In this document: positions 4,155-49,582 of the stretch, in pieces
Layout: each line of letters begins with the position of its first letter
Position numbering within the stretch: the stretch's first letter is position 1
IMG/VR virus record: IMGVR_UViG_3300047444_000617
Location: 1-64,000 of that record
Reading direction: 5' to 3' (one strand)
Length of the DNA: 64,000 bases
From: a virus
Notes under the pieces: generated by a model
The model's input: only the letters and a program-made list of their open reading frames with translations
Databases searched by the model: none
What the model was told of the DNA's origin: nothing
Translations under genes and position numbers: made by a program

Positions 4155-5231
4155 TCACTGCGCCCGGCGCAGCGGGACGACGTTGTCCTGCGACACCATC
4201 GCTGTCAGGAACGGCTTGCCCTTCATCGTCAGATCCCGGCGCTTGCGCTCACTGGACAGCCCCAGGTACCTCTCGGTGGTGGCCATGTTCGAGTGATGCA
4301 GCAGTGCCGATACCGTCCGCAGCGCCGCGTCGTACCCCAGCTCGGTGGACATCGAGTCGAAGTACGCGCGAGCGACCGCACGGCGCAGGGTGTGCGTCCC
4401 CTCGTAGCGCGTCGGCAGCCCCAGCGCCTCCAGCGCGGCCTTCACGATCTTCTCCGTGCGCTGCACCGGCCGGTCGGGGTGCCACACATACGGGGTGCGC
4501 TCCAGCACGCGGCGCCCCGTGGTCTCGTCCAGGTAGTTGCGCGCGATCAGGTTCCCCGACCGCGCCGGGAACAGGTGGTCCTCGTCGCGCAGCGGTCGGC
4601 CCAGGAGCTGCTGGTACTCGACCATCCACGCGCGCAGCTCCCTCTCCAGGTCAGCGGTCAGCGGCATCTCGTCCTCCTCCCGCGTCTTGATCACCGTGAC
4701 GAACAGCTCCGAGCGGGCGAAGTCGACGTCCCCGACCTTCATGCCGGTGATCTCGCTGGCACGGCAGGCGGTGTTGATCGCGGTCGCCAGGTAGGCCCGG
4801 TGCATCTGGCACTGCGCCTGGTCCAGCAGCATCAGCAGGATGGACGGCGCGGGCTGCTGCCGCTTGCGCCGGGGTTCCGGCAGCGCCTCGACACCGCTGA
4901 GGTAGTTCTCCAGGTGGGTGTATCCCTCGGCCTTGCAGAAGCCGAAGAAGCATTTCAGCCGCTTGCGGTACGCGTTGTGCGTGCCCGGCCCGACCGGCTC
5001 ACGCACCGGCTGCCCCTTGATACGGGTGGAGTGGGTGTCCATCAGACCGCCGGGGCCATAGAAGAAGTCGCGCACGTTCTGGGCCGAGAGCTGCTCGAAG
5101 CTGGGATCCCCCAGGTGCGCGGTGAACCGGGGCAGCAGGGTGCGGTCCACCCGCATGGTGTTGTCGGCCTTGCCCGAGCGCTGGCGGATGGCCAGGTACT
5201 CGGCGACAGCGCTGCTCAGTGCGATGGTCAC
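4155..5231 (-). CDS. Tyrosine recombinase (phage integrase)
   Basis: 358 residues from ATG 5231. It has an N-terminal SAM-like core-binding domain followed by the catalytic domain. The conserved set is visible: Arg157 (ACRASE), Lys182 (VIKTREED), His280-x-x-Arg283 (HTLRR), His312/313 (LLHHSN) and nucleophile Tyr322 (TERYLG). It should catalyse site-specific recombination between phage and host attachment sites. It carries a start-associated leader and promoter upstream. It lies next to a complete serine integrase, which is unusual; resolution of dimers or a second att system are alternatives. Confidence 0.93.
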   Translation of the reverse strand: MTIALSSAVAEYLAIRQRSGKADNTMRVDRTLLPRFTAHLGDPSFEQLSAQNVRDFFYGPGGLMDTHSTRIKGQPVREPVGPGTHNAYRKRLKCFFGFCKAEGYTHLENYLSGVEALPEPRRKRQQPAPSILLMLLDQAQCQMHRAYLATAINTACRASEITGMKVGDVDFARSELFVTVIKTREEDEMPLTADLERELRAWMVEYQQLLGRPLRDEDHLFPARSGNLIARNYLDETTGRRVLERTPYVWHPDRPVQRTEKIVKAALEALGLPTRYEGTHTLRRAVARAYFDSMSTELGYDAALRTVSALLHHSNMATTERYLGLSSERKRRDLTMKGKPFLTAMVSQDNVVPLRRAQ

Positions 5232-5235
5232 GCGT

Positions 5236-5290
5236 CCTCCTGGAGTGGGGCTGATGGCATCACACTACTCACGACAAGCGATCCCCGCAA
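5236..5290 (-). promoter_or_regulatory. Integrase promoter with start-associated leader
   Basis: Minus-strand -35 TTGCGG (5285-5290), 17-base spacer, -10 TAGTGT (5262-5267), then the leader CCCCACTCCAGGAGG (5236-5250). This leader is one base different from the repeated leader of the 38-50 kb block and contains the Shine-Dalgarno sequence of the integrase. Confidence 0.6.
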
Positions 5291-20466: not shown

Positions 20467-21129
20467 CTACTTCACCGTGTAGCGCCCGTAGTAAACGGAG
20501 TGGGTCCAGGGCTTGTAGAGGTTGACTCCCCTGCCCGGCTTTTCTGCCTCAAGCCAGGTGTGGGAATTGACGTAGATCCCGACGTGGTAGACGTACCCAC
20601 GCGCGTCGTGGACGAAGAAGAGGTCCCCGGGCTGCGGGGTCCTCACGTGCTGGCTGTGCCGGTACTGGTCCTCGGCGACGCGGGAGACGGACTTCCCCAG
20701 ACGCGCGAGCGTGTACTGGGTGAATCCCGAGCAGTCGAAGCCCCTGGACGGCGAGGTGCCGCCCCACACATAGCGAACGCCCCGGTAGGCCTCGCCCCTG
20801 GCCACGATCTTCTGGCCGGAGGTCTGCCTGTGCTTGGGCTTGGTGACCGGCTTGTGCTTGGTTACCGGCTTGGGCACGGTCTTGGTCGGGGCGGAGCGGG
20901 TTATGTAGATCCGCTCGCCCGGGTAGATGCGGTTGGGGTTGGCCAGGTGGTTGAGGGCAGCCAGGTGCTGCCAGGAGGTGTGGTGCCTGTAGGCGATGCC
21001 ACCGAGGGTGTCCTCGGCGTGAACGGTGACGTACGTGGACTGGGGTACTTGCGCCTGCGCGCTGGACGTCGCGAGCGGGGAAAGCACCAGTGTTGCGGCG
21101 ATCAGAAGTCCGGTGATCGTCTTCTTCAT
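20467..21129 (-). CDS. Secreted LysM plus NlpC/P60 endopeptidase
   Basis: 220 residues from ATG 21129. Residues 1-27 are a classical signal peptide (MKKTITGLLIAATLVLSPLA, then SSAQA). A LysM domain (about 33-77: VHAEDTLGGIAYRH, NPNRIYPGERIYI) is followed by a Lys/Pro linker and an NlpC/P60 domain with catalytic Cys in GFDCSGFTQY, then HVGIYV and the His/Asn-type partner. It should cut peptidoglycan stem peptides outside the membrane. Unusually, it sits between tRNA genes; lysis, or remodelling of the host wall in lysogens, are both possible. Confidence 0.9.
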   Translation of the reverse strand: MKKTITGLLIAATLVLSPLATSSAQAQVPQSTYVTVHAEDTLGGIAYRHHTSWQHLAALNHLANPNRIYPGERIYITRSAPTKTVPKPVTKHKPVTKPKHRQTSGQKIVARGEAYRGVRYVWGGTSPSRGFDCSGFTQYTLARLGKSVSRVAEDQYRHSQHVRTPQPGDLFFVHDARGYVYHVGIYVNSHTWLEAEKPGRGVNLYKPWTHSVYYGRYTVK

Positions 21130-21299
21130 AACAGCACTCCGTACGCCTGCGAGATTAGGTGACGGACTCGGGATAAGTGCCTTTCCCTACCACAAATGAG
21201 ATTGCGGATTCGCCCCAGTGAAGCGTTTCGGTCTCCCGCCCCTGTTCAGAGGTTGAGTACAGTGTTCGTCCAGGAACAGGGTTAAGCGTCTGGACAAAG

Positions 21300-27753: not shown

Positions 27754-27793
27754 GAAGACCCCCACCAGGAGGGGTTTCCCGGTGGGGGTCTTC
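27754..27793 (-). terminator. Hairpin terminator after the nucleotidyltransferase gene
   Basis: Perfect 13-base stem GAAGACCCCCACC / GGTGGGGGTCTTC with a 14-base loop, following the minus-strand stop at 27820. Confidence 0.85.
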
Positions 27794-37956: not shown

Positions 37957-38445
37957 TTACCGGACGTCTACGGGGTGCGCGGCGTTGTACGCGTCGCGTA
38001 GGGCCTTGAACGCGGCCCACACTTCGTGCCCGTTGGTCTGCGGGCCGATCCCGTGGCCGAAGCTGGCGGAGTTCGCCACGGTGCACAGGAACGACTCCCC
38101 GCGTCCGTGTGCCCGGTGCGCTTCCATATCGGCCGCGCTGATCACGTAGCCGCAGGATCCCCGGTCGCCCGGAAGCGACTCCCGGCACTCCCATGAGGTG
38201 ATTTCGTCGTTCTCCACCACCGGCCGGAGAACGGTGGACGTCGTCCACGTGTGGGCAGGGTCAAGGCCGTTCGCCTCACACTGCGCGGCCGAGTAGCTGT
38301 GTCGGTGCGCGTGCAGTCCGGCGGAAGGCTGCACGCCGCAACGGTCGCAGGTGGAGAAGTACCCGGGGGTGGGCGGCTCACTGTCGTACGTGCACTCACG
38401 GGTGCAACCGGTGTTGACGCACTGCGGGGCGGTGGTGGTGATCAT
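37957..38445 (-). CDS. Zinc-finger-like hypothetical protein
   Basis: 162 residues from ATG 38445, behind a full start-associated leader. Multiple Cys and His (QCVNTGCTRECTYDS, STCDRCGVQPSAG, SWECRESLPGDRGSCGY) suggest two zinc-binding modules. Last gene of the leader-bearing block on its left side; function unknown. Confidence 0.68.
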   Translation of the reverse strand: MITTTAPQCVNTGCTRECTYDSEPPTPGYFSTCDRCGVQPSAGLHAHRHSYSAAQCEANGLDPAHTWTTSTVLRPVVENDEITSWECRESLPGDRGSCGYVISAADMEAHRAHGRGESFLCTVANSASFGHGIGPQTNGHEVWAAFKALRDAYNAAHPVDVR

Positions 38446-38454
38446 GTTCTGTGT

Positions 38455-38469
38455 CCTCCTGGTGTGGGG
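38455..38469 (-). promoter_or_regulatory. Start-associated leader CCCCACACCAGGAGG
   Basis: Exact copy of the 15-base leader, 9 bases before the ATG at 38445. It includes the AGGAGG ribosome site. Confidence 0.8.
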
Positions 38470-38492
38470 TCGGTTGTTGGGGAGTGTACGGG

Positions 38493-38756
38493 TCAGTTGG
38501 CGGTGGAGTCGTACAGGGAGCATCCGGGGGCGTGGTGCTTGTTGGCCAGGCTGCCCCCGTCGACACCCGGGATATCCTCCCCGCATTCCTCGCACGTGTC
38601 GTCGTCGTCGGGGCGGAAATCGTCGGCAATGGTTGCGACCACTTCCGGCATGGTCGAGTGGGGCAGGGATTCCGCGATACGCGCGACCTGCTCATCGGTC
38701 AGGGTGAAACCGGCCCACGCGTTGAGTTGATTGCGGGTGATCATGATTCCGGACAC
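38493..38756 (-). CDS. Small hypothetical protein with CxxC and CxxxxC sites
   Basis: 87 residues from GTG 38756 (CAGGAGG six bases upstream). Helical N-terminus, then DDDDTCEECGEDIPGVDGGS and HHAPGC, a likely treble-clef zinc site. The leader is a diverged form of the repeated one. Confidence 0.62.
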   Translation of the reverse strand: MSGIMITRNQLNAWAGFTLTDEQVARIAESLPHSTMPEVVATIADDFRPDDDDTCEECGEDIPGVDGGSLANKHHAPGCSLYDSTAN

Positions 38757-38781
38757 GGGTACCTCCTGATGGGTTGGTTGG

Positions 38782-39111
38782 TCAGCCGATGCGGAGCACA
38801 AGCGCACGGACGGCGGAGACGTCGTCCAGGGTGGGCACGGGCGTACCGGGCACGGCGGTGCAGTAGGCGACTACGGCGAGTTGAACGGTGGTGCTCACGC
38901 TGCGGGGGTTCTCCCCGGCGCGCAGCCATGCGGACTTGAGAGCGTCGCGCGCCTTAGCGGCCCGCATGGCGTGCGCCTCCTCCTCGGTCATGCCGTAGCA
39001 GTAGACGTGACCGCTACGGGACGACCACACGTGCTCTGCGTGCGCGTACGAGGGACCGGAGAAGAAACAGCCGAGCTTAGGCAGGGTCTGCGCGGGGGTG
39101 CTTGTGATCAT
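38782..39111 (-). CDS. Hypothetical protein
   Basis: 109 residues from ATG 39111. It has PKLGCFFSGPSYAHAEHVWS and a helical C-terminus. Function unknown. Confidence 0.62.
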   Translation of the reverse strand: MITSTPAQTLPKLGCFFSGPSYAHAEHVWSSRSGHVYCYGMTEEEAHAMRAAKARDALKSAWLRAGENPRSVSTTVQLAVVAYCTAVPGTPVPTLDDVSAVRALVLRIG

Positions 39112-39174
39112 GGTGTGTGTCCTTCCTGGGGAAGGGGCCGGAGGACGCTCCCCCGGCCCCGGGGTGTGCGAGCG

Positions 39175-39921
39175 TCAGACGGCGAGACCCTGCGCGGTGT
39201 GGAACTTCGCGGCCTGCTTGAACGCGGCGCGGAAGGTGGCGAGGGACGTGGGGGCGACCGTGCGGAAGTCGCGCGCCCAGTGGGGAAGGATGGCGACCTT
39301 CTGATCCTGGAACACTCCACCGGCCGCGATCATCGCGTGATTCTGGCCGCGAGTCTCAGTGGCCAGCGCCTTACGGGCCAGCGGGGAGAACATGCCGGAG
39401 TGCTTGCGGTACGCCGCTTCCTCCCCGTGGCGGTCGACACCGCGACCGGTGCCCGCGTGACCGAAGATGTCGTGCGCGGCGCGGAACATGTCGTTGACGT
39501 CGTCGGAGAAGAAGAAGTGAGACCCGGTCGCGGCGGTCGACATCACGCGCATACGGCCGTTGGCGACGTCGTCGAAGAACAGCCGGGTTCCGCCGGGGGC
39601 GGTGGTGTCGTACGGGTCGGTGTCCTCAACCGAGACCGTGATGCCGAGACCGCCGCGCGACATGGGGGCGGTGATCAGGTCGAACTGACGCTTGGTCTCT
39701 TCCGCCATCGCGCGCCATGCGGCGGGGGCGTTGTTGTCGATGAACGGCAGCGCCATGTACGCCGCGCCGATCTTGGCCACCGCTTCCGGGGCGACGATCA
39801 CGCGGGAGTAGTCCCAGTGGTCACGGGTGTTGAGACCGTTCTGCGCGTTGTAGCGGCGGGCGCCTTCCACCACGGCGGGGACGGGAGAGACGGACAGTGC
39901 GGGGATGTTGGCGGTACGCAT
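39175..39921 (-). CDS. Conserved phage protein with HDIFGHA motif
   Basis: 248 residues from ATG 39921, behind an exact leader. The middle reads MFRAAHDIFGHAGTGRGVDR, then HGEEAAYRKHSGMFSPLARK and ATETRGQNHAMIAAG; the clustered His and Glu (HDxFGH, HGEE) look like metal ligands, faintly like aromatic amino acid hydroxylases. I recall similar proteins in other large phages, but no function is known. An enzyme is likely. Confidence 0.68.
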   Translation of the reverse strand: MRTANIPALSVSPVPAVVEGARRYNAQNGLNTRDHWDYSRVIVAPEAVAKIGAAYMALPFIDNNAPAAWRAMAEETKRQFDLITAPMSRGGLGITVSVEDTDPYDTTAPGGTRLFFDDVANGRMRVMSTAATGSHFFFSDDVNDMFRAAHDIFGHAGTGRGVDRHGEEAAYRKHSGMFSPLARKALATETRGQNHAMIAAGGVFQDQKVAILPHWARDFRTVAPTSLATFRAAFKQAAKFHTAQGLAV

Positions 39922-39929
39922 TTCGGGGG

Positions 39930-39944
39930 CCTCCTGGTGTGGGG
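39930..39944 (-). promoter_or_regulatory. Start-associated leader CCCCACACCAGGAGG
   Basis: Exact copy, 8 bases before the ATG at 39921. Upstream lie TTACCG words and a -10-like TAATGT, but no clean -35. Confidence 0.8.
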
Positions 39945-40045
39945 CGCTGGTGTGCTGACAGAGAGAACATTACCCGTGTGGGTAACGGTGAAACGGTAAC
40001 CCCGATATATTTTACCGAGATTTGGTGAGCGGCTGTACGGGTGGC

Positions 40046-41026
40046 CTAGCGGGCCAGCACGGCGCGTAGGGCGTCCGCGTAGGTGGTGGGGTGCAGGATG
40101 TCCCCCGCACCCGTGCGGACGTTGTAGAAGCGCGCGGAGTGCCATTCCTCGCCCTTGGGGAAGTCGATGCCGAACGCGCGACTGTCGCTCACGCGGACCA
40201 GTAGCACGCCCCACTCGTTCGGGTGGTCGTACGTGATCGCGTCGGACGCACGGACGTCGTACCCCTCCCCGTCAATGGCCACGTGCGTGACCGTGCGCAC
40301 GTCGGTCCAGTTGCGGCCGGTCGTCTGAAAGTTCGACGGGCGGCGGTCGATGCGGATAACCTCCCCGGCGCCGGTCGTGTCGACGATGCCCCGGCAGTAC
40401 CGTTCGGCGTTCCCGTCCGTGTGAGCAAACTCCTTGTCGGAGTACGGTCCCCACACGTGCCCGGCGTGGTCGCGGTACGACCAAAGGGTGCGGTACTCAG
40501 CGGCCCACACGTACCCGATGGCGTACTGACGCACCCAGGTGTGTACGTCCCCGTTGCCCTGGATCCCGCCAGGCATGTCCCCGTCGTAAATCGTCTCGGT
40601 GCCGAGATACACGTAAAGGTCCCGTCCACCGTTCGCCACGACAGCAGAGACGCGGCGGCCGTCCAGCCAAAGCGGGGAAGCCTCACGCCACGTGCGGGCA
40701 TGCTCCGCACTCGGGTAGTACGTGCCATCGGTCGGGCGGTTCTCCTCCCCCGCGTTGGCGACGTAGTAGGCAACGGTGTCCAGGGGAACAAGCTCCCCGC
40801 CGTGCGTGAGCGTCACGGCCACCAGCTCCCCCGCGCGGGTCAGCACGGTCTGCCCCTGGACCTCCTCGGCGACGCCGAGCCGTACCAGCACCGCGCACGT
40901 GTTGGCGCGGGCGTCGACCACGGACCGGCCGCGCAGAGCGTCTACGGGGGACAGCAGTTCCTCCCCGAACGGTGCGGCGTTGCGCAGCGCTTCGTACTGC
41001 GGGCGGGTGATCGTCTTGCTTGCCAT
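40046..41026 (-). CDS. Hypothetical protein with N-terminal winged-helix-like region
   Basis: 326 residues from ATG 41026. The first 75 residues look like a small winged helix (ITRPQYEALRNAA, VDARANTCAVLVRLGVAEEV). The rest is beta-rich with many Trp and Tyr (TWVRQYAIGYVWAAEYRTLW). It may recognise nucleic acid or a surface ligand; not assigned. Confidence 0.66.
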   Translation of the reverse strand: MASKTITRPQYEALRNAAPFGEELLSPVDALRGRSVVDARANTCAVLVRLGVAEEVQGQTVLTRAGELVAVTLTHGGELVPLDTVAYYVANAGEENRPTDGTYYPSAEHARTWREASPLWLDGRRVSAVVANGGRDLYVYLGTETIYDGDMPGGIQGNGDVHTWVRQYAIGYVWAAEYRTLWSYRDHAGHVWGPYSDKEFAHTDGNAERYCRGIVDTTGAGEVIRIDRRPSNFQTTGRNWTDVRTVTHVAIDGEGYDVRASDAITYDHPNEWGVLLVRVSDSRAFGIDFPKGEEWHSARFYNVRTGAGDILHPTTYADALRAVLAR

Positions 41027-41074
41027 GGTGTCTCCCTCGGTCGCCGTCCCCGCTGTCTTGCGGGCGGAGCCCTG

Positions 41075-41102
41075 AGCCTAGCGGCTGATTACCGTTTGGC
41101 AA
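41075..41102 (-). promoter_or_regulatory. Promoter of the 40046 gene
   Basis: -35 TTGCCA (41097-41102), 16-base spacer containing CGGTAAT, -10 TAGGCT (41075-41080) on the minus strand. Confidence 0.55.
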
Positions 41103-41183
41103 GGGGTTTTCGCAGATGGCTTTCTGGACGTTACGCAATCGTGACGTGCGCCCCGGGGCCGGGCGTGGTTCCATGGCACACCT

Positions 41184-41219
41184 AGGCCCCCACCGGCCAG
41201 CAGCACTCGGCGGGGGCCT
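41184..41219 (-). terminator. Hairpin terminator
   Basis: AGGCCCCC (41184-41191) and GGGGGCCT (41212-41219), a perfect 8-base stem, on the minus strand after the 41506 gene and its repeat region. Confidence 0.6.
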
Positions 41220-41427
41220 TAGTCATGTCCGGGGTCAATGGAGGGGAGGTGAGGGGGATGCAGGCGACACGCCAGCAGGCCAGACGGGGCGAACGCCGGG
41301 AAGGGGTAGGACAACCGGCGGGGACGACCGGCAGGGGGCAGGTGGCCAGAGGGTGCGGGAGGAGGGGAGATCCGCCCGCGCGCGAGGGAGTTGAGGCTGT
41401 TGCATCTCCCCGCGCGCGAGGGTTCAA

Positions 41428-41505
41428 AAATCCGACTGTGACGGCGGATAAAATCCGCTTCCGTCCTGGAGAAGAATCCGACTTCCGATCGGCCAGAAAA
41501 TCCGA
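41428..41505. repeat. Iteron-like direct repeats, 23-24 base period
   Basis: Four units begin AAATCCGA, AAATCCGC, GAATCCGA and AAATCCGA at 41428, 41451, 41474 and 41498. Units 1 and 3 share more (AATCCGACT). The last word ends one base before the stop triplet of the 41506 gene. The helical-turn spacing (about two turns) is typical of sites bound by cooperative initiator or repressor proteins. Confidence 0.5.
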
Positions 41506-42081
41506 TCAACGGCGGACGAGCGACAGGTGCCGCTTCCGCTTCGGAATCTTCCCGGCGGGCACCAGGAGATATCTGGCTCCGGGGTCCAGCGGGTGCAGGC
41601 GGGCGTAGACGTTGCCGTCCTTGTCGCGCCAGGCGGTGGCGTGCGGGTGCCTGTCGCTCAGCACCCATCGCAGGATTCCCGTGACGATCGTCCGGGCTAC
41701 CGGGCTGCCAGTCGGTTCGTAGACGCCGTGTCCCTTGCCGTTCTGGATGGCGTACCGACCCTCCTTGACCACGGAATCCACCGTGTCCGGCGTGATGTAC
41801 GCGGCGTCAGTTCCGGCCGGTACTTCCACAGCGAAGCAGATGAACTCCGGATCGGAAACCTGGGTGCGCTCCCGGATGTCCTGCCGGGGAAAATCCGGTG
41901 CGTAGACCACGCGGGTCCAGTGGGTGTGCGGGTAGGTATTTCCACGCCAGGTATGGACACCCTCCAACACCCGAAGTCCGGTTCCGGTGTGGACGAGCAT
42001 TCCGGGCCTGAGTGCGTGTGCGACGACCGGGCGGGCGCCCTCGGGTCGGTAGTCCTCGATCCAGTACTCGTCGGTGTTCAT
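41506..42081 (-). CDS. Hypothetical protein
   Basis: 191 residues from ATG 42081, behind an exact leader and its own promoter. Beta-rich with LRPGMLVHTGTGLRVLEGVH and a basic end (KIPKRKRHLSLVRR). Function unknown. Confidence 0.66.
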   Translation of the reverse strand: MNTDEYWIEDYRPEGARPVVAHALRPGMLVHTGTGLRVLEGVHTWRGNTYPHTHWTRVVYAPDFPRQDIRERTQVSDPEFICFAVEVPAGTDAAYITPDTVDSVVKEGRYAIQNGKGHGVYEPTGSPVARTIVTGILRWVLSDRHPHATAWRDKDGNVYARLHPLDPGARYLLVPAGKIPKRKRHLSLVRR

Positions 42082-42086
42082 GCGGG

Positions 42087-42163
42087 CCTCCTGGTGTGGG
42101 GCATGGTGTGGTGTGCCGACATTACTAATCCCCGGAACCGTATGTCAAATGGTTCCGGGGATT
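42087..42163 (-). promoter_or_regulatory. Leader, promoter and hairpin upstream of the 41506 gene
   Basis: Leader CCCCACACCAGGAGG (42087-42101), -10 TAATGT (42119-42124), 18-base spacer, -35 TTGACA (42143-42148). A perfect 13-base hairpin AATCCCCGGAACC (42127-42139) / GGTTCCGGGGATT (42151-42163) encloses the -35 in its loop, so the upstream gene's terminator and this promoter share one sequence. Confidence 0.75.
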
Positions 42164-42176
42164 TGCTTGCAATGGA

Positions 42177-42632
42177 CTACTGGAGAGGTCGGAGGGAGCC
42201 CGCGATGTTCCGGCGCAGCAGGCGCCACAGGTGCGAGCGGCTGGCCTTCTTCAGCGCGGGCTCTGGGATCCCGTGGCGGGCCTCCCAGCACTCCTGAACA
42301 CGGCGGTGGAGACCAGTCCAGGCATTTCGCTCGATCAACTCAGCGCAGGCCGCGCAGGCCGCCCAATCCCCCTCGAACGCCTGATCCTTGCCGGTGCGGG
42401 GATCCTTACCGGCGATGAAGTCGTGGACCGGCAGGACGAACGCGGGGGCGTCGGTGTTACAGAAGTCGCAGCGGCCTCGAACCTCGTTGTCATCAGCAAC
42501 CACGGGGACGGCCTTGTGGCCTTGCAGACGGTCCTGCTCGTGGTGGTCCCACGACAGGTTTCCCGTGCCGCGCTCCTCCAGTTTCTCCAGGGGGCGCCGA
42601 CACTCCTTGCAGACCATGGGCGGGGTGCTCAC
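42177..42632 (-). CDS. Zinc-finger protein, possible HNH-like nuclease relative
   Basis: 151 residues from ATG 42632. CxxC pairs (MVCKECRRPL, RCDFCNTDAP, WAACAACAELI) and an internal DHHEQDR suggest two zinc sites. The basic C-terminus could bind nucleic acid. It lacks a clear HNH core, so the nuclease idea is weak. Confidence 0.62.
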   Translation of the reverse strand: MSTPPMVCKECRRPLEKLEERGTGNLSWDHHEQDRLQGHKAVPVVADDNEVRGRCDFCNTDAPAFVLPVHDFIAGKDPRTGKDQAFEGDWAACAACAELIERNAWTGLHRRVQECWEARHGIPEPALKKASRSHLWRLLRRNIAGSLRPLQ

Positions 42633-43237
42633 TTGGTCACCTTCTGGCCCGGGGAGATGATACGGAAGAGCGAGCCGTCCTCGGCGGTCAGCGTCTCGCC
42701 CTTCTCCATGTCCTTGATGTGCTCAGCCAGCTCTCCGGAGCGCAGGCCCTTGCGCTGCATCTCATCGGTGAGCTGCCCCCAGGCCGCGTCGCGGGCGCTC
42801 TCCTCGGACCGGCCCATCGTGATCCACGGGCTGTCCTCGTGCTTCCCCCGCGTCTGGGCCAGGAACTGGCGGGCGGTGCTGTCGCGGTTGGCCTTCCACC
42901 AGTTGTTCATGTCGGCGAAGAAGGTGGCCGTCTCGTCGGCGCTATCCAGGCTGGGGAAACTCTCCTCCTGGCCGTCGCGAAGGATGGCCAGAACCTGCTC
43001 GCGGGTGAGTCGGACGTCGAACGTCGGCTCCTCCTGCTTCTCCTCCACGGTGACGCGGAAGGTGCGGGTGGCGTCGGTGCCAGTGCTGTCGTTGACCAGC
43101 ACATCGAGAGCCCACGGCCCCGGCTTCTCCAGGGGGTTGACGAAGTCGACGTTCAGCACGTCCTCGGTGTGCAGGGTCGGCCGGGCCGGGCTCGACAGCA
43201 TGTCGCCGATCAGCTTGCGAAGGCCGAGGAGGTTCAT
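42629..43237 (-). CDS. Hypothetical protein
   Basis: 202 residues from ATG 43237. A central WWKANRDSTARQFLAQTRGK and an acidic C-terminal region. Its Leu-His-Thr is encoded CTG CAC ACC, unlike the CTT CAT ACC elsewhere. Overlaps the next gene by 4 bases. Confidence 0.64.
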   Translation of the reverse strand: MNLLGLRKLIGDMLSSPARPTLHTEDVLNVDFVNPLEKPGPWALDVLVNDSTGTDATRTFRVTVEEKQEEPTFDVRLTREQVLAILRDGQEESFPSLDSADETATFFADMNNWWKANRDSTARQFLAQTRGKHEDSPWITMGRSEESARDAAWGQLTDEMQRKGLRSGELAEHIKDMEKGETLTAEDGSLFRIISPGQKVTK

Positions 43238-43278
43238 CGTGTGCTCCTTGTCAGGGCGCCGTAGTGGTTACAGGGACG

Positions 43279-43307
43279 AACCTAGTGGCGCCCTTAACGC
43301 TTGTCAA
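43279..43307 (-). promoter_or_regulatory. Promoter of the 43237-42177 unit
   Basis: -35 TTGACA (43302-43307), 17-base spacer, -10 TAGGTT (43279-43284) on the minus strand. Confidence 0.65.
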
Positions 43308-43321
43308 GTGGTCTGTTCAAA

Positions 43322-43537
43322 CTACTTGCTTGTCGTGTACTTGCGCTGGACGACACGACCCCGGGGAGGCTGCTCAACCTCGACGGTCTCCCCCGGCTTG
43401 ACACTGACGGCCTCGACGTCGGTGGCTCCCTCGGCCCGCAGCCTGGCCATACGGTGCTCGGCGCTGCCCCTGTCGTACGCCACGGCGGACACCTTGCGTC
43501 GGCCGCCTTCTGTCCACACGACCCTCAAGTTCTCCAT
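43322..43537 (-). CDS. Small hypothetical protein
   Basis: 71 residues from ATG 43537 (AGGAGCACC upstream). A ferredoxin-like small fold is suggested by VVWTEGGRRKVSAVAYDRGS and VEAVSVKPGETVEV. Function unknown. Confidence 0.6.
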   Translation of the reverse strand: MENLRVVWTEGGRRKVSAVAYDRGSAEHRMARLRAEGATDVEAVSVKPGETVEVEQPPRGRVVQRKYTTSK

Positions 43538-43545
43538 GGTGCTCC

Positions 43546-44391
43546 TCACGGGTTATCGCGCCAGCGGTCGGCCTTGGGCAGGGTCTCGTTGGCCAACCGG
43601 CACACGGTCCAGGTGGCGTCCTCCAGACCGACCCCCTGCGTCCGCGCACCCTCGAACATCTCGACGGCCTTGCGGGCGACACCCTGATCGCGGTAGCGCC
43701 ACCCCAACGAGCCGAAGGTGTGGTCATAGTCGGGGTCCATCACGCGGGCACCCCAGGTGGTGATCGGGACTTCCTTGCCCTCGACGTAGGTGCGCTCTTC
43801 GGTGTAGCGCATGACCTGGACGCGGTCGCCGGTGCTCAGGGTCAGCGTCTCGACGACCTCCTCACCCTTGTGCTCGCGGGCGGGTTCCTCGCCAGGCGCG
43901 TATCCGAACATCGAGTAGAAGGGCGGCAGCTCCTTCTCCAGGCCGCGCTTCCACCGCTCGCGCATGATGTCGCCCAGGGAGTACCAGTTCCCCAACAGCT
44001 CCAGCAGCTCGGGGGTGATGTCGTAGTGGCCGAGGCGGACGATGCGATTGTCGACGACCTTGCCCTTGCGCTTGAGGGTGAGTGCCGCGCGGCCGTCCTG
44101 CCCGTTGTCGGTGCGGAACACGGCCGACTTGTCGGTGACCTTGGTGACGATCTTGCGGCGACTCCAGGTGGCGTATCGCTCCTCCACGATGTCGCCGACG
44201 ACGAGATCCTTCACCAGCACCTCGCCCGGCTTGAGTGCGGGCCGCTTCTTCGCATCCTCGGCCTGCTGGCGGATGCGCGGGGCCAGGAAGTTGAACCACA
44301 AGGACGCCTGTACGTCCGCCTTGGGGCGGCTCCACCCGAGGTCGTTCATGTGGTCGGCGAGTTCCTTGATGATCTCTTCATCGGTTGGCAT
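43546..44391 (-). CDS. Hypothetical protein
   Basis: 281 residues from ATG 44391. It starts with an acidic helical region (EEIIKELADHMNDLGWSRPK), then mixed alpha/beta with LVVGDIVEERYATWSRRKIV, a small-barrel-like stretch. No family recognised. Confidence 0.65.
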   Translation of the reverse strand: MPTDEEIIKELADHMNDLGWSRPKADVQASLWFNFLAPRIRQQAEDAKKRPALKPGEVLVKDLVVGDIVEERYATWSRRKIVTKVTDKSAVFRTDNGQDGRAALTLKRKGKVVDNRIVRLGHYDITPELLELLGNWYSLGDIMRERWKRGLEKELPPFYSMFGYAPGEEPAREHKGEEVVETLTLSTGDRVQVMRYTEERTYVEGKEVPITTWGARVMDPDYDHTFGSLGWRYRDQGVARKAVEMFEGARTQGVGLEDATWTVCRLANETLPKADRWRDNP

Positions 44392-44404
44392 GTCGTGCTC
44401 CTGA

Positions 44405-44686
44405 TCAGTGAGTGTGAATGGGTGTGGCCGTCCAGTAAGTGTGTGTGGTCCCGGGCTCAGCATCATGGGGCTCCCAGTCACTGACGTGCAGTCCGTAGAA
44501 GCCACGCACCTCACCCATGCCCCAAGCCTTCGCACCATCCGGGTCGTCGGCAGAGATTTCGCTGTTGGCGCCTTTAGGCAAGCCCTTGAGTCCCTGGCCG
44601 AATAGGAGTAGCCAGGTCGCGAGGTCCGTACCTTCGTCCACGTAGGCCAGCGTCCAGTACGGATGGCCGGGGGGAGGCAATGGCAT
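44405..44686 (-). CDS. Hypothetical protein
   Basis: 93 residues from ATG 44686 (CAGGAG upstream). It begins MPLPPPGHPYWTLAYVDEGT and ends TYWTATPIHTH. Function unknown. Confidence 0.6.
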   Translation of the reverse strand: MPLPPPGHPYWTLAYVDEGTDLATWLLLFGQGLKGLPKGANSEISADDPDGAKAWGMGEVRGFYGLHVSDWEPHDAEPGTTHTYWTATPIHTH

Positions 44687-44699
44687 CGGAGGCTCCTGA

Positions 44700-44942
44700 T
44701 CAGACGAGGGTGGTGGCGTTGGCGACGCGCGGGCAGCCCTGCGCAATGTAGTCCTGCCAACTGACAATGTTGTTTCGCGTGGCCTGGATGCGGGTCATGA
44801 CCAGCCGCTGTCGCTTGACTGTCCGCTCCCCCTTCCAGCGCCTCTCCAGGGCGCACAGCTCACGCTCGCGCTGCATCAGGAGCTTGTCGGCGGCGGCCTG
44901 GCGCTCGTCCTTCTGGTACGACCGGAACGGGCTGACAGCCAT
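44700..44942 (-). CDS. Small basic coiled-coil protein
   Basis: 80 residues from ATG 44942, behind an exact leader and promoter. A long charged helix (ERELCALERRWKGERTVKRQ) and a basic surface suggest nucleic-acid or protein binding. Confidence 0.63.
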   Translation of the reverse strand: MAVSPFRSYQKDERQAAADKLLMQRERELCALERRWKGERTVKRQRLVMTRIQATRNNIVSWQDYIAQGCPRVANATTLV

Positions 44943-44950
44943 CTCGCGCT

Positions 44951-45022
44951 CCTCCTGGTGTGGGGTGCTGCTTGCAAGAGAAAAACTACAGGGACCGCTC
45001 GACTCATGTCAAGCGATCCCTG
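44951..45022 (-). promoter_or_regulatory. Leader and promoter of the 44700 gene
   Basis: Leader CCCCACACCAGGAGG (44951-44965), -10 TAGTTT (44983-44988), 18-base spacer, -35 TTGACA (45007-45012). An 11-base imperfect inverted repeat CAGGGACCGCT (44989-44999) / AGCGATCCCTG (45012-45022) brackets the -35 box. Confidence 0.75.
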
Positions 45023-45056
45023 TGAAGTGCTTGCTTGTGGCGGTCTCCTGGTCCAT
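45009..45056 (-). CDS. Possible 15-residue micro-peptide over the promoter
   Basis: ATG 45056 with CAGGAG upstream gives MDQETATSKHFTGIA, whose stop overlaps the TTGACA of the next promoter. A leader peptide or decayed gene end is possible; it could be chance. Confidence 0.25.
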   Translation of the reverse strand: MDQETATSKHFTGIA

Positions 45057-45061
45057 GGTGA

Positions 45062-45208
45062 CTACTCCTGGTCTCGTATCGCGGCGTGCTTGACGGTCTT
45101 GCGGGTGCGCTGCTTGCGGGGGCGGGAATCGTGTCCTCCGGCCGCTCCGCTGCGCCGACGCTCCTGGACGGCGCGGACGTACTCGGGGACGTTCTGCTGG
45201 GCGTTCAC
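45062..45208 (-). CDS. Small basic protein
   Basis: 48 residues from GTG 45208 (CCAGGA upstream). Strongly basic (RRRSGAAGG, RPRKQRTRKTVKH), probably a nucleic-acid-binding peptide. Confidence 0.58.
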   Translation of the reverse strand: MNAQQNVPEYVRAVQERRRSGAAGGHDSRPRKQRTRKTVKHAAIRDQE

Positions 45209-45225
45209 GGTCACTCCTGGGCGCA

Positions 45226-45260
45226 GTAGGGGAGATTCCAGGTTATTGAATCTCCCCTAC
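45226..45260 (-). terminator. Hairpin terminator after the 45271 gene
   Basis: Perfect 13-base stem GTAGGGGAGATTC / GAATCTCCCCTAC with a 9-base loop. Confidence 0.85.
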
Positions 45261-45270
45261 CGGTTACCAA

Positions 45271-46128
45271 CTACTTGCGCTTGGCCGCGCGCTTCTTCGC
45301 CTCTTCGATCACATCCGCCCAGGTCTTGCCCTCCTTCAGAGCAATGGCCAGGGCGACACGCTCGACGTCCTCGGCACGCTTGTCGCTGTTGCGCCACGGC
45401 TCGAAGTGGTCGGCGAGCCAGCTCCTGGCTGCTGCGAGGGTCTTGATGGTCTCGAACGTGTCGTGTGCGGGCTGGGTGACCATCCGGCCGCCTCGCCGGA
45501 CTTGCCGCTCCGGTACGTGCCAGTCGAAGACCTCCAGCGGGCTGCCGTCAGGGTTGGCGATGGCCTTGGCGGCCTTCTTCGCCTCGCGCTCAGCCTTCTT
45601 CGCCTCGCGTTCCAGCCGGGCAGCCTTGCGCTCCGGCGCCTCCAGCCGTGTCTTCTGCTTGAGGACGTCGACCGGGGCCCACGAAAAGCAGACCGTGCAC
45701 GCCTTCTCGCCCGCGAGGTCGACCAACTCCTCGGCCGTGAGGCCGGACTGCTCGACGAGCCACGCGTAGCGGGTGTCGGGGAAGCACGTGGTGCAGTCCT
45801 GGTCCTTGTGGACGTGTCCGTTGGTGTTGTCGACGAGGTAGTACCGGGTCCAGCGGCGATCGTTGTACTGCGCCTCGCGGGGGTAGACCTCGGTACCGAG
45901 GATTTCCCAGATGCGCTCCTGGAGCGCCTTGTGCTCATCGACCAGCTTGGCGCGGTTCTCCGGCGAGTTGTCCGGGAGCAGGGAGGCGTAGGAACCGGGC
46001 TCGACCTCGTCGATGTGGGACACCCTGGCGTTGATGCGGTGCTGCTGGTTGGTCAGTTCGGCGATCTTGCCGTAGGCGTCGGCCAACTTGGTGTCGATCT
46101 CGACGGGGGTGGCGGTGCTGAAGTCCAT
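45271..46128 (-). CDS. Conserved actinophage protein with zinc-binding centre
   Basis: 285 residues from ATG 46128, behind an exact leader. The middle has GHVHKDQDCTTCFPDTRYAW and GEKACTVCFSWAPV, forming a Cys/His zinc site flanked by coiled coils (LEREAKKAEREAKKAAKAI). I recall relatives in many actinophages without a function. Confidence 0.7.
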   Translation of the reverse strand: MDFSTATPVEIDTKLADAYGKIAELTNQQHRINARVSHIDEVEPGSYASLLPDNSPENRAKLVDEHKALQERIWEILGTEVYPREAQYNDRRWTRYYLVDNTNGHVHKDQDCTTCFPDTRYAWLVEQSGLTAEELVDLAGEKACTVCFSWAPVDVLKQKTRLEAPERKAARLEREAKKAEREAKKAAKAIANPDGSPLEVFDWHVPERQVRRGGRMVTQPAHDTFETIKTLAAARSWLADHFEPWRNSDKRAEDVERVALAIALKEGKTWADVIEEAKKRAAKRK

Positions 46129-46134
46129 CCGTTG

Positions 46135-46197
46135 CCTCCTGGTGTGGGGCGTCTTGCTGACATGGGAGACGTTACGGGCTCACGTCTCCCATGTCAA
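46135..46197 (-). promoter_or_regulatory. Leader and promoter of the 45271 gene, inside a palindrome
   Basis: Leader (46135-46149), -10 TAACGT (46169-46174), 17-base spacer, -35 TTGACA (46192-46197). A perfect 13-base inverted repeat ACATGGGAGACGT (46160-46172) / ACGTCTCCCATGT (46182-46194) spans from the -10 to the -35. Confidence 0.78.
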
Positions 46198-46218
46198 GCG
46201 AGTTCACAGAATCACTTG

Positions 46219-46509
46219 TCAGTACTTCTCCAGGTGGTTGCCCGTGCGCTCCTCGTAGACGCGGCGCTTGCGTGCGATGGCCTGCACGCGCAACTCCAGG
46301 CGCTTGGTCCACTCCGCCACTTCGGCGGGAGCGACTACGCCGATCTCGCACTGGCGTAGCCACAGCACAGGGTCGAATCGCTCGCTGGTACCGGTGAGTG
46401 CGTCGGCGATGTCGAAGGCGAGGGCGCGGCGGGCGTCCCTGTCCACATCAGAGTCGGCGATGGCTGCCGACAAGGTCTCGTAGTCGCCTCGGTTCATACC
46501 GCTGGCCAT
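46219..46509 (-). CDS. Small hypothetical protein
   Basis: 96 residues from ATG 46509, behind an exact leader. Helical (ADSDVDRDARRALAFDIADA, RLELRVQAIARKRRVYEERT). Function unknown. Confidence 0.64.
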   Translation of the reverse strand: MASGMNRGDYETLSAAIADSDVDRDARRALAFDIADALTGTSERFDPVLWLRQCEIGVVAPAEVAEWTKRLELRVQAIARKRRVYEERTGNHLEKY

Positions 46510-46515
46510 GATCTA

Positions 46516-46530
46516 CCTCCTGGTGTGGGG
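46516..46530 (-). promoter_or_regulatory. Start-associated leader CCCCACACCAGGAGG
   Basis: Exact copy, 6 bases before the ATG at 46509. The gene is separated from upstream transcription by the terminator at 46553-46590, so a promoter must lie between them, but I see no clean -35. Confidence 0.78.
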
Positions 46531-46552
46531 TGCGTTTGCGTGGAGAGTACTA

Positions 46553-46590
46553 CGGGCCACCTGACCGTGTTGCAGTGGTCAGGTGGCCCG
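46553..46590 (-). terminator. Hairpin terminator after the DUF2786 gene
   Basis: Perfect 14-base stem CGGGCCACCTGACC / GGTCAGGTGGCCCG with a 10-base loop. Confidence 0.88.
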
Positions 46591-46608
46591 CTGGGGGTGC
46601 TGGAAGGG

Positions 46609-47466
46609 TCAGGCGGCGATGCCCGTGCGCTGGCCGCCGATGGCCTTGTTGCTGCCCAGACGGGCGGAGCGGGCAGCGTCGTCACCGGCGGAGCGCGCGC
46701 TGTAACTGGTCGACGACGTCGGCTTGTAGCCCTTCCAAGAACCCCTGGCGGTGGAGTGCTCGGTGTAGTAGCCGTTGATCTCCGCCTTCTTGTCCATCAG
46801 GACCAGCTCGGCGGACACCTTGACCTCCTGGGCGGTGCCGTCGGCCGCCTCCTCGTGGATGGTGACGGTGGAGTTCTTGGCCGCCTTCAGTGCCTCCTCG
46901 CGGGCCTCGCGCAGCCGGTAGGCGATGCGCTGGGTGAAGGAGTCGTAGAAGTTGGCGCGGGCGGTGCGTCCGTCCACCGGCCGCTCCTCGTAATCCGTGT
47001 AGACGTCGCCCCAGTAGTCGCGCTTCTTCACCGCGCGGCTGACCGTCTCCTTCTTGTACTCGCCCTTCTTCAGCCACGCGGTGGCGGCCTCGGTCATCTG
47101 GAAGAGCAGGGAGGCGTACAGCACCTCGACGACCTCGATGTCGGAGGGCATGCCGAACGCGATGACGTAGGTGGAGTTCTGGGCGATGTTGATCGTCAGG
47201 TCGTTGTTGCGTGAGACGGCGTGGAAGAGGTTGACGAGCCGGGCGTTGTTGTTCTTGCGGACCTGCCCGATGGTGATCGTCTTGTGGGTAGGCTGCTCGC
47301 GCTGCTCCTTCTTCGCCGTGTGGCGCCGGGCAACGGCCAGGTCGATGCTGGTCTGCGTGGCGAGGGCCTGCGCCTTCCTCATGGCCGCGTCGGCTTCCTC
47401 GGGGGTGCCCGCGTTCTCGGCCTGGTTGAGGATCTTGGCCAGCTTGTCGAGCATGCGGTCGCTCAT
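46609..47466 (-). CDS. DUF2786-domain protein
   Basis: 285 residues from ATG 47466, behind an exact leader. The N-terminal 45 residues (LDKLAKILNQAENAGTPEEA, MRKAQALATQTSID) are a DUF2786 domain, common in bacteria and actinophages. The remainder is helical, with a Ser/Gly/Arg-rich tail. Function unknown. Confidence 0.78.
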   Translation of the reverse strand: MSDRMLDKLAKILNQAENAGTPEEADAAMRKAQALATQTSIDLAVARRHTAKKEQREQPTHKTITIGQVRKNNNARLVNLFHAVSRNNDLTINIAQNSTYVIAFGMPSDIEVVEVLYASLLFQMTEAATAWLKKGEYKKETVSRAVKKRDYWGDVYTDYEERPVDGRTARANFYDSFTQRIAYRLREAREEALKAAKNSTVTIHEEAADGTAQEVKVSAELVLMDKKAEINGYYTEHSTARGSWKGYKPTSSTSYSARSAGDDAARSARLGSNKAIGGQRTGIAA

Positions 47467-47474
47467 TGGGTGCT

Positions 47475-47489
47475 CCTCCTGGTGTGGGG
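47475..47489 (-). promoter_or_regulatory. Start-associated leader CCCCACACCAGGAGG
   Basis: Exact copy, 8 bases before the ATG at 47466. The preceding gene ends only 18 bases further upstream. Confidence 0.78.
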
Positions 47490-47506
47490 GCTTAGTGGTG
47501 AGTGGA

Positions 47507-47941
47507 TCAGGCTTCGACGTGCTCGTGGATGTCGAGCAGGTTCTCCGGGAGGGTCTCGGTGTACTTCACCCTCGGCGCACCCTTCCTGGCGTCGTCCCAG
47601 TTGCTGGAAGCGGTGGAGAACGACCTGCGCTCGAAGAGGGTCACCAGGCGCTCGCGGAGGACTTTGGTGCCCGCCGCGCCCTCGTTGCGACTGACGAGTT
47701 TCTGGGCCTCGTAGTAGTCCATGTGGCGGGCCAGCTCGGCGATGACGTCCACCCGGTTCATGGCCTGCACGCGAGCCCGGTAGCCCGGGGCCTTCTCGGT
47801 CTGCATGTCCTTGAGGGCGTTGCGTACTGCGCGCGTGTGGGCGTTGCCGAGCTGCTGCTGCGTGCGCTTGCCCTGCTCGGTTCGGATGACCCGCTCTTCG
47901 CCACATACGCGGATCGTGGTCTCGCGGTAGTTCCTGTCCAC
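47507..47941 (-). CDS. Hypothetical protein
   Basis: 144 residues from ATG 47941, behind an exact leader and promoter. Charged and helical, with TQQQLGNAHTRAVRNALKDM. Function unknown. Confidence 0.65.
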   Translation of the reverse strand: MDRNYRETTIRVCGEERVIRTEQGKRTQQQLGNAHTRAVRNALKDMQTEKAPGYRARVQAMNRVDVIAELARHMDYYEAQKLVSRNEGAAGTKVLRERLVTLFERRSFSTASSNWDDARKGAPRVKYTETLPENLLDIHEHVEA

Positions 47942-47951
47942 GGGGACCGCT

Positions 47952-48019
47952 CCTCCTGGTGTGGGGGCTGGCTGATGAGGACGAATCTACGGGTCACTCT
48001 TACCGATTGTCAAGCGGTA
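47952..48019 (-). promoter_or_regulatory. Leader and promoter of the 47507 gene
   Basis: Leader (47952-47966), -10 TAGATT (47984-47989), 18-base spacer, -35 TTGACA (48008-48013), with TACCG (48001-48005) and CGGTA (48015-48019) forming a small inverted repeat around the -35. Confidence 0.78.
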
Positions 48020-48027
48020 TCGCCAAA

Positions 48028-48363
48028 TTACTTTCTGGGCTGTCCACCGCTGGGGATGCTGATCACGCGCTTGCCCCGGCGGTGGTCGAACCGCATCTCC
48101 TTGGCCCGGTCGGCAGCGATCTCGTCGTAGATCTCGTTCACCGCCTTGACGGCGTCATTGATGGTGGTGAACGGCCCGCCGGTGCGCTCGGTCAGCCGAG
48201 GGGTGTGCAGGTCGAAGTACCAGCCGACGTCCTCGGCCGTGATGTCATCCTCGGTGGGGTTCTCGACGACCTGGTCGGCAGTGACGCGCCAGATGGCCCC
48301 GAGGCGCCCGAACTCATCGGTGGGGTAGATGATGCCTTCGCCGCCGACCTTGAGGGTGAGCAT
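48028..48363 (-). CDS. Hypothetical protein
   Basis: 111 residues from ATG 48363 (CAGGAGAAC upstream). Alpha/beta, ending in a basic tail. Its Leu-His-Thr uses CTG CAC ACC. Function unknown. Confidence 0.64.
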   Translation of the reverse strand: MLTLKVGGEGIIYPTDEFGRLGAIWRVTADQVVENPTEDDITAEDVGWYFDLHTPRLTERTGGPFTTINDAVKAVNEIYDEIAADRAKEMRFDHRRGKRVISIPSGGQPRK

Positions 48364-48405
48364 GGGGTGTTCTCCTGTCCAGAGGGTGGTAAGCGGTACT
48401 TGCGG

Positions 48406-48618
48406 TCAGCCGTGGTGCTTCAGTGCGTCCATGGCGGCCTGGGCGTCCTTGAACGCGCTGTTTCGGATGGTCTTGATGACCTCCCACACGAAGAGGTCGT
48501 CGGGGTCGACGGGGAACATATCGTCGGTGACTGCCTTATCCCGCAGGCCCGCATTGATCAGGCGCGCGACGGCGTTGCGCAGCCGGGCCTCGCGGTTCGG
48601 ATCCATGGGTGCGGTCAT
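48406..48618 (-). CDS. Small helical hypothetical protein
   Basis: 70 residues from ATG 48618 (AAAGG seven bases upstream); ATG 48633, which overlaps the previous stop, is an alternative. It has REARLRNAVARLINAGLRDK. Function unknown. Confidence 0.6.
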   Translation of the reverse strand: MTAPMDPNREARLRNAVARLINAGLRDKAVTDDMFPVDPDDLFVWEVIKTIRNSAFKDAQAAMDALKHHG

Positions 48619-48629
48619 GGTGCGGCCTT

Positions 48630-49148
48630 TCATATGTTGGCGAGGGCGCCGAACGAGACACCGTGGCGGGTGAAGGAGTCGGTCAGTAGCAGACCGATCT
48701 CCGGCCCCATGACCTCGCGCACCATGTGCAGGAAGGTGCTGGCGAACACGGCGTCGTGATGCTCTCCGCGCGGCGCGAGGTGGTGGCTCAACTCGTGCAG
48801 GATTACCAGTTCCCGCATAGCCCAGGATGACTCACCCGGCTTGTGGTCGGGGATGGCGAACACCTGGCCCAGCGACTCGTAGTGGGCGAACCGGTCGCCC
48901 TTGCGCTGGCGGACGCGGACAGGCAGGACAGTGCGCTCCGGCCAGGTACTGCGGACCCAGTTCAGGGCCAGCACGGCGTCGATGTAGCGCTGGATGCTGT
49001 CCAGGTCGCCGAACTTGCGCTCCCGGGGAACGAGGAGGCTGGATCCGTAGAAGTCGAAGGTGGGGACGTCGACACCGGCGAGGGAGTCGAGCGTGCGGCG
49101 GACCATCTTCTCGGCCTCGTAGACCTTGGACTTCTGGTTGTCGCGCAC
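48630..49148 (-). CDS. Zincin-like metallohydrolase (HExxH)
   Basis: 172 residues from GTG 49148. The motif LVILHELSHHLAPRGEHHDAV carries HELSH at 118-122 and a downstream His, the zinc site of gluzincin/metzincin-like enzymes, as in the small actinobacterial family TIGR04338. Intracellular, as there is no signal peptide. Probably a peptidase or metal-dependent hydrolase of unknown substrate. Confidence 0.78.
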   Translation of the reverse strand: MRDNQKSKVYEAEKMVRRTLDSLAGVDVPTFDFYGSSLLVPRERKFGDLDSIQRYIDAVLALNWVRSTWPERTVLPVRVRQRKGDRFAHYESLGQVFAIPDHKPGESSWAMRELVILHELSHHLAPRGEHHDAVFASTFLHMVREVMGPEIGLLLTDSFTRHGVSFGALANI

Positions 49149-49150
49149 CG

Positions 49151-49501
49151 TCAGGACTCCTTGCCAGTGAGAGCAAAGATGACCTTGCGCTTGGCCTCGG
49201 CGTAACCGAGCTTGAAGCCCTGCTCCTTGGCCGCGTTGACCAGGTTCTCGGTGTGGGAGCGGGCGCCGCGCTCGGAGGTGCCACTACCCATGATCAGGAC
49301 GATGTTGTCGGAGATCTCGTACTCCAGTGGACGGCGAGGGTGCTCGATGACGGGGCCCTTGTCGCGGCCCGCGTTGTAGATGCCGTCCAGGGCGCGGCGC
49401 AGGTCGTCAATGTTCAGGTCCGCTCCCTGGCCGACCAGCTCGATGACGGCCGCGTACTTCTTCTCAAGGGCAAGGTAGTCGCGGACGCTGTTATCGGTCA
49501 T
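49151..49501 (-). CDS. Hypothetical protein
   Basis: 116 residues from ATG 49501, behind an exact leader and promoter; it ends 2 bases before the metallohydrolase start. Contains EYEISDNIVLIMGSGTSERG. Function unknown. Confidence 0.64.
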   Translation of the reverse strand: MTDNSVRDYLALEKKYAAVIELVGQGADLNIDDLRRALDGIYNAGRDKGPVIEHPRRPLEYEISDNIVLIMGSGTSERGARSHTENLVNAAKEQGFKLGYAEAKRKVIFALTGKES

Positions 49502-49509
49502 GGTGTGCT

Positions 49510-49582
49510 CCTCCTGGTGTGGGGGCTGGTCTTGGTGACGAGAGATACGGTACTCAGGAATCGGTAGCTGTCAAGCCGTATC
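49510..49582 (-). promoter_or_regulatory. Leader and promoter of the 49151 gene
   Basis: Leader (49510-49524), -10 TACCGT (49547-49552), 16-base spacer, -35 TTGACA (49569-49574), bracketed by GATACGG (49544-49550) and CCGTATC (49576-49582). Right-most exact copy of the leader. Confidence 0.75.

Follow-up and report, generated by a model that had tools for sequence, protein, structure and literature searches.

A repeated 15-base leader that may act as a lineage-specific translational control hairpin before early genes of a large temperate phage

The leader and the genes behind it

The viral record IMGVR_UViG_3300047444_000617 has a full length of 110,248 bases, and its first 64,000 bases form the stretch analyzed here (the window). 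A 15-base leader, CCCCACACCAGGAGG, which contains a ribosome site, precedes nine minus-strand genes of the window, its copies lying from 38455 to 49524. The record carries a contractile-tail gene set (tail sheath, portal, head protein, DNA polymerase, ribonucleotide reductase, and tyrosine integrase) and belongs to a large temperate phage whose putative host group is soil actinobacteria, such as Streptomyces. In its head protein, the phage is 73.6% identical to Streptomyces phage BRock (Borockvirus), by this protein the nearest cultured relative found, and 84% identical to a prophage of Terracoccus sp. 273MFTsu3.1. A megablast search of the leader region against cultured phages gave zero matches, and one cultured relative was scanned whole. 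Throughout, gene starts are calls of this analysis, transcript starts are predictions, and the contigs compared are partly fragments.

The nine exact copies reported by the first-pass annotation were recovered, each with its ribosome site inside and at the claimed spacing of 5 to 10 bases from the start codon. The plus strand of the window has zero exact copies, and a search of all 110,248 bases returned the same nine and no more on either strand, with 0 copies of the reversed pattern used as a control. The copy with one change claimed at the tyrosine integrase is also present (CCCCACTCCAGGAGG, 5236 to 5250); it leaves a gap of 4 nucleotides (nt) between GGAGG and the start codon, and four relatives (contigs L021, L028, L036, and L055) have the exact 15-mer there. 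When up to three mismatches were allowed, 19 matches were seen against 5.6 expected by chance, with a maximum of 11 in 100 shuffles. One sequence with two changes, ACCCCCACCAGGAGG, lies on the other strand (27758 to 27772, plus) within a terminator-like hairpin and is probably a chance match.

The genes behind the leaders, all on the minus strand, are early and non-structural, together with the integrase (4155 to 5231, recognized by family match); no identified structural gene has a leader. Three of them have no family match: those for products of 162 amino acids (aa) (37957 to 38445; leader at 38455 to 38469, gap 9), 191 aa (41506 to 42081; leader at 42087 to 42101, gap 5), and 96 aa (46219 to 46509; leader at 46516 to 46530, gap 6). 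The 248-aa product (39175 to 39921; leader at 39930 to 39944, gap 8) matches phrog_3170, and a 285-aa cysteine-pair protein, zinc-ribbon-like by eye (45271 to 46128; leader at 46135 to 46149, gap 6), matches phrog_15500, both families of unknown function. A second 285-aa product carries DUF2786/DUF7168 (46609 to 47466); its leader (47475 to 47489, gap 8) is operon internal and promoterless, 17 nt past the preceding stop codon. The remaining genes encode a basic helical-hairpin protein of 80 aa (44700 to 44942; leader at 44951 to 44965, gap 8), a 144-aa protein with a GTG start (47507 to 47941; leader at 47952 to 47966, gap 10), and a 116-aa protein (49151 to 49501; leader at 49510 to 49524, gap 8).

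An exact scan of IMG/VR for the 15-mer returned 51 stretches, many of which belong to about 20 related soil contigs, so that the search of relatives proposed with the first-pass annotation did find the element again. The consensus CCCC-R-C-A-N-C-A-GGAGG precedes about 5 to 13 genes apiece in nine long contigs, and most orthologs collected by protein similarity, with the motif unused, retain the leader. The core columns are about 83 to 97% conserved across 92 leader genes, whereas C reaches about 40 to 55% in 53 other AGGAGG genes, and in these phages the genes with a good AGGAGG outside the leader set have no CCCC-rCAnC ahead of it. Conservation of CCCCACACC beyond the needs of initiation, as first claimed, thus holds both against other AGGAGG genes and across relatives. 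One relative, an isolate genome, has mostly a shortened variant such as CTCC-GACCA-GGAGG. The copies are uniform inside each phage and differ between lineages. In Herbidospora and three Streptomyces, the prophage relatives had no repeated leader in the stretches examined, which may omit the early region. A host origin of the motif was considered and rejected: eight carriers of related prophage genes have 0 to 3 consensus copies per whole genome, the same as the reversed control.

A hairpin around the ribosome site

In the window's lineage, the CCCC of the leader pairs with the Shine-Dalgarno (SD) sequence GGAGG. The loop between the two arms has six bases (R C A N C A), the A in GGAGG is bulged, and the edges of the 15-mer are the edges of this hairpin. 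RNAfold and RNAalifold both give the fold ((((......)).)), with predicted energies of about −2 to −6 kcal/mol at 37°C. When the nine bases ahead of the SD were swapped for those of other genes, predicted SD accessibility rose from 0.327 for native leaders to 0.378 for replaced ones (Wilcoxon P = 7e-7), the native value being lower because CCCC pairs with GGAGG. The loop tail, SD, and start codon alone served to select 113 sites; of these, 80 have CCCC as the 5′ arm, 6 have CTCC, and 3 have CCTC, the two variants placing U-G pairs where C-G pairs stood. An outer pair forms at 46 of 89 sites (shuffled mean, 26; maximum, 38). In the window it is G-C at the leaders starting at 39930, 42087, and 46135 and A-U at that of the 96-aa gene, several orthologs of which have U-A. 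Within the loop, C9 and A7 are near-fixed and N8 is variable, a pattern of conservation that, in the aligned leaders, exceeds the needs of a bare hairpin. The GGA lies in the 3′ arm and not in the hairpin loop, where a CsrA-type site would have it. Extended pairing with 16S rRNA was also considered and discarded: the bases upstream of AGGAGG add no complementarity to the tail at the 16S 3′ end.

An array of different sequence occupies the same region of the diverged Terracoccus prophage; its leaders read G[A/G]CCC-NNNAA-GGAG[U/C]C. These stand before orthologs of the DUF2786, 285-aa, and 80-aa genes, and the orthologs of the 96-aa gene and of a 172-aa gene are adjacent and leaderless. A second phage of this type, IMGVR_UViG_3300037466_002547, was found by a search in which mispairing was allowed at the two stem positions that vary. 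In 30 distinct leaders from the two phages, a count that omits the Terracoccus leader of gene 906887 with its one extra base per arm, stem pair 2 is A-U in 15, G-C in 15, and mispaired in 0. The covariation score was matched by 0 of 500 shuffles, and slid structures collapse. Both sides of stem pair 2 are switched between two 383-aa orthologs that are 87% identical, and the matching position in the window's lineage is C-G. In Terracoccus, the four-pair hairpin occurs at 15 of 25 early GGAG genes versus 0 of 54 other GGAG genes. The Terracoccus-type leaders fold as (((((.....)).))) in RNAfold and RNAalifold, and the latter gives the same fold for both lineages. In the sister lineage, then, compensatory changes preserve a stem that includes the SD; the window's lineage supports such a structure more weakly.

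Promoters, gene order, and competing explanations

Many leaders follow a promoter of a common class. Among leader promoters with TTGAC, 40 have a TAnnnT −10 element at a spacing of 16 to 19, and the leader mostly begins 16 to 22 nt past the −10. In the window, TTGACA −35 elements at 48008 to 48013 and 49569 to 49574 (both minus strand) belong to the 144-aa and 116-aa genes. A conserved block, often GCAAGC or GAAAGC, lies about 22 nt upstream of the −35; together with a GCTTG that overlaps the −35, it could be a repressor operator (candidate CAAGC-N14-GCTTG).

Several promoters coincide with dyads on the minus strand, and the folding z-score is below −1.5 at 22 of 51 sites. A GC-rich intergenic dyad at 42128 to 42162 (−27.4 kcal/mol; z, −5.1) has TTGACA (42143 to 42148) in its loop and the −10 at its 3′ edge; possibly it is a terminator and a promoter fused. 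Another, at 44988 to 45023 (−30.0 kcal/mol; z, −7.3), contains TTGACA (45007 to 45012) and is followed by TAGTTTTT. The two regions, near 42120 to 42170 and 44980 to 45035, resemble a fused terminator-promoter in having the −35 in the loop and a −10 or T-run at the 3′ edge. The dyad ACATGGGAGACGT/ACGTCTCCCATGT (46159 to 46195; z, −5.6) lies over a promoter with its −35 at 46192 to 46197, and GGGCCACCTGACC/GGTCAGGTGGCCC (46554 to 46589) lies ahead of the 96-aa gene. Dyad arms differ from gene to gene, and among orthologs of the 80-aa gene both arms change together.

The 172-aa gene (48630 to 49148) is leaderless in the window, where it lies downstream of the 116-aa gene; in three relatives with no detected 116-aa ortholog, it has the promoter and leader itself. 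In another relative, a 71-aa gene sits between the promoter-leader and the 80-aa gene, which is leaderless there. Only the window phage, among nine compared, has the 144-aa gene between promoter-leader and DUF2786 gene, and both of these genes have a leader. By such comparisons, the leader follows the promoter or position, not the gene, when genes are lost, inserted, or swapped.

This behavior is what would be expected of a cassette joint, a short boundary sequence kept uniform by recombination between phages and travelling as a ribosome site with no control function. The leader stays with the promoter during gene swaps, a second copy stands at the joint between the 144-aa gene and the DUF2786 gene, and the copies are uniform within a phage and different between lineages. 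The compensatory stem changes and the fixed loop bases beside a free one, however, need selection at the RNA level, and we regard such a joint as unlikely to be the explanation, although it is compatible with a control hairpin and both can hold. Selection on RNA could also come from message stability, if transcription begins about 10 nt ahead of the hairpin, which would then shield the 5′ end from 5′-3′ decay. Many copies do lie about 16 to 22 nt behind a −10 and hence near a predicted 5′ end, but the operon-internal copies are far from any 5′ end, and in every case the SD itself forms the 3′ arm, which makes this account quite improbable. A plain translation enhancer, in which a C/A-rich leader stays unstructured and leaves the ribosome site exposed within a GC-rich messenger, would fit the G/U-poor sequence before the SD and the A/C-rich leaders of BRock and a Nonomuraea prophage. 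It is very improbable in light of the sister-lineage covariation and of the requirement for C at positions 1 to 4, where A is rare; the leader makes the SD less accessible by prediction and therefore does not behave as an unstructured enhancer.

Two further accounts place the cause in the DNA. Were the element a repressor operator or a promoter component, it would be expected where many copies are found, downstream of TTGACA-N16-18-TAnnnT promoters that have the conserved block ahead of them. Because several leaders directly follow a stop codon within operons, with no promoter, the element is not part of the promoter; it also always has the SD sense, 4 to 10 nt from the start codon, and tolerates G-U pairs, all of which leaves a DNA-level role highly implausible. 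Nine identical copies in one phage might alternatively stem from recent duplication of whole upstream regions, which, coupled with absence of the word from relatives, the first-pass annotation had named as the outcome that would undo its idea. The leader genes are mutually without sequence similarity and so are not paralogues; the only common stretch in their upstream DNA is a 12-base promoter piece, in one pair; and about 20 diverged contigs keep the word. With the genes unrelated, an origin of the leaders by duplication is next to impossible.

The position, repetition, and conservation of the leader, its linkage to promoters, and the covariation of the sister-lineage hairpin all come from comparison of sequences. 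On this footing, the 15-mer is probably a lineage-specific translational control hairpin around the ribosome site, common to the early-gene set. Several points weigh against this. The four core pairs are nearly invariant in the window's lineage, where covariation rests on the outer pair, and since one slid structure there nearly matches the covariation score, that lineage by itself is suggestive. The alignment of the lineage required C/T arms, which biases the percentage of pairing, and sites related by copying make the counts exceed the number of independent changes. The hairpin has little stability, and its effect on accessibility is small. Finally, the homogenized leader of the Nonomuraea prophage, CACACAGAAAGGCGG, is without a hairpin. 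As a control hairpin, the weak structure would hold the ribosome site until opened, and while closed would lower initiation; one standard hairpin would offer a common handle by which the gene set could be controlled together.

Known systems and a candidate factor

We know of no mechanism put forward so far for start-associated repeats in actinobacteriophages, and to our knowledge the start-associated sequences (SAS) of cluster K mycobacteriophages have stood unexplained since 2011. The likeness to cluster K suggested by the first-pass annotation is sustained as an analogy, with position, orientation, repetition, and promoter association alike. The SAS, too, is a repeated short SD-containing element, 3 to 10 nt before non-structural starts and in one orientation; about 10 to 19 copies are conserved at genes unrelated to one another, and an inverted repeat that has a SigA-like promoter often lies upstream (extended SAS [ESAS]) (PMC3203893, PMC11373665, and PMC12699233). 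The window leader is placed in the same way, 4 to 10 nt from the start on the gene strand, in the early region and at the integrase. Host genus and phage type differ, however, and the SAS sequence, GGGATAGGAGCCC, is unrelated to CCCCACACCAGGAGG, which is not within two changes of it; the element is therefore not a member of the SAS family. Nor does it have the conserved 17-bp inverted repeat found with a SigA-like promoter at about half of SAS copies, since its dyad sequences differ between genes, although the promoter class is common.

The outer GGG...CCC symmetry of the SAS was noted by Pope and co-workers, in whose available text no SAS hairpin is proposed. If formed, the SAS fold would pair GGG with CCC (−1.9 kcal/mol) and put the SD in the loop, whereas the window leader puts it in the stem. 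Among the SAS of Anaya and Pixie there is one compensatory variant (CGG..CCG): in Pixie, CGGATAGGAGCCG (L182, position 2520) preserves the outer GGG/CCC symmetry by a double change. Several single changes break the stem, and for this reason the SAS hairpin is offered as a lead only.

Hairpins at the ribosome sites of T4-like phages are known as single, gene-specific structures. They likewise close the ribosome site of a phage gene (e.g., mobE of Aeh1, cited in PMC3014915), unlike the window leader in that here one standard hairpin, with lineage-specific sequence, is reused before about ten unrelated genes. The T4 gp43 operator and RegA sites are also short RNA elements at initiation sites, gp43 reading a small hairpin and RegA repressing about 30 messages (PMC3014915); RegA sites differ in being unstructured and A+U rich, and the gp43 operator in being autoregulatory and confined to a single gene. 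BRock shares the contractile tail and has CAACCAAACGAAAGGA-like sequence ahead of the start codon in a few early genes (L123, about 6 to 14 kb) but no copy of the 15-mer in that position. In the prophage of Nonomuraea sp. SYSU D8015 (G026 C1, about 660 to 675 kb; L176), about 16 genes have the CACACAGAAAGGCGG leader; no common hairpin was found on folding the leaders of either phage. In open papers, no account was found of one standard SD hairpin, constant in fold but spelled differently in each lineage, ahead of about ten unrelated genes.

Two features, the near-constant loop positions next to a free one and the lineage-specific uniformity of the leaders, suggest recognition of the hairpin by a factor, plausibly a trans-acting, lineage-matched RNA-binding protein of the phage that recognizes the loop. 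Because a distant relative keeps the hairpin with changed letters, these phages may switch the gene set at translation. A fuller version, which we advance tentatively and hold to be rather doubtful, is that such a protein switches 10 to 16 early genes together at translation and has diverged along with the hairpin into a private code for each lineage; the cluster K SAS, with its SD in the loop and not the stem, would be a distant analogue. The first-pass annotation had likewise proposed a shared translational regulator or RNA-binding protein. Its points on conservation and on the SAS analogy stand, as does an origin other than duplication of whole upstream regions; it had missed the SD hairpin and the common promoter class, some members of which have a dyad around the −35.

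Candidate factors were taken as proteins that the lineages with the hairpin share and that went undetected in relatives lacking such arrays. The best of them is the basic 80-aa helical-hairpin protein, with 16 Lys plus Arg and 8 Asp plus Glu residues and a model pLDDT of 87; it is a lead that common synteny explains equally well. It was found in 19 contigs, all within the two hairpin lineages, and across about 790 genomes its family turned up only in the Terracoccus prophage. Structure comparison of the model gave generic helical matches, none with an E value of <0.001. For start-associated repeats in actinobacteriophages, the comparison offers a testable mechanism, in which the same fold occurs in two lineages with different letters. 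If the trans-acting protein is real, large temperate phages would have a translational regulon with ready-made operator variants that could help to find the protein; if there is none, the element would still offer a portable ribosome site, weakly closed, for use in high-GC actinobacteria.

A separate regulatory RNA lies elsewhere in the window. A cyclic di-AMP riboswitch (RF00379; 62.7 bits) at 21130 to 21269, minus strand, stands directly before a gene for a cell wall hydrolase with LysM and NlpC/P60 domains (20467 to 21129), and the unit sits between phage tRNA genes. The same riboswitch is present in a relative (contig L089, 2995 to 3129; 71.9 bits). By its arrangement, this phage hydrolase gene is apparently controlled by a host second messenger.

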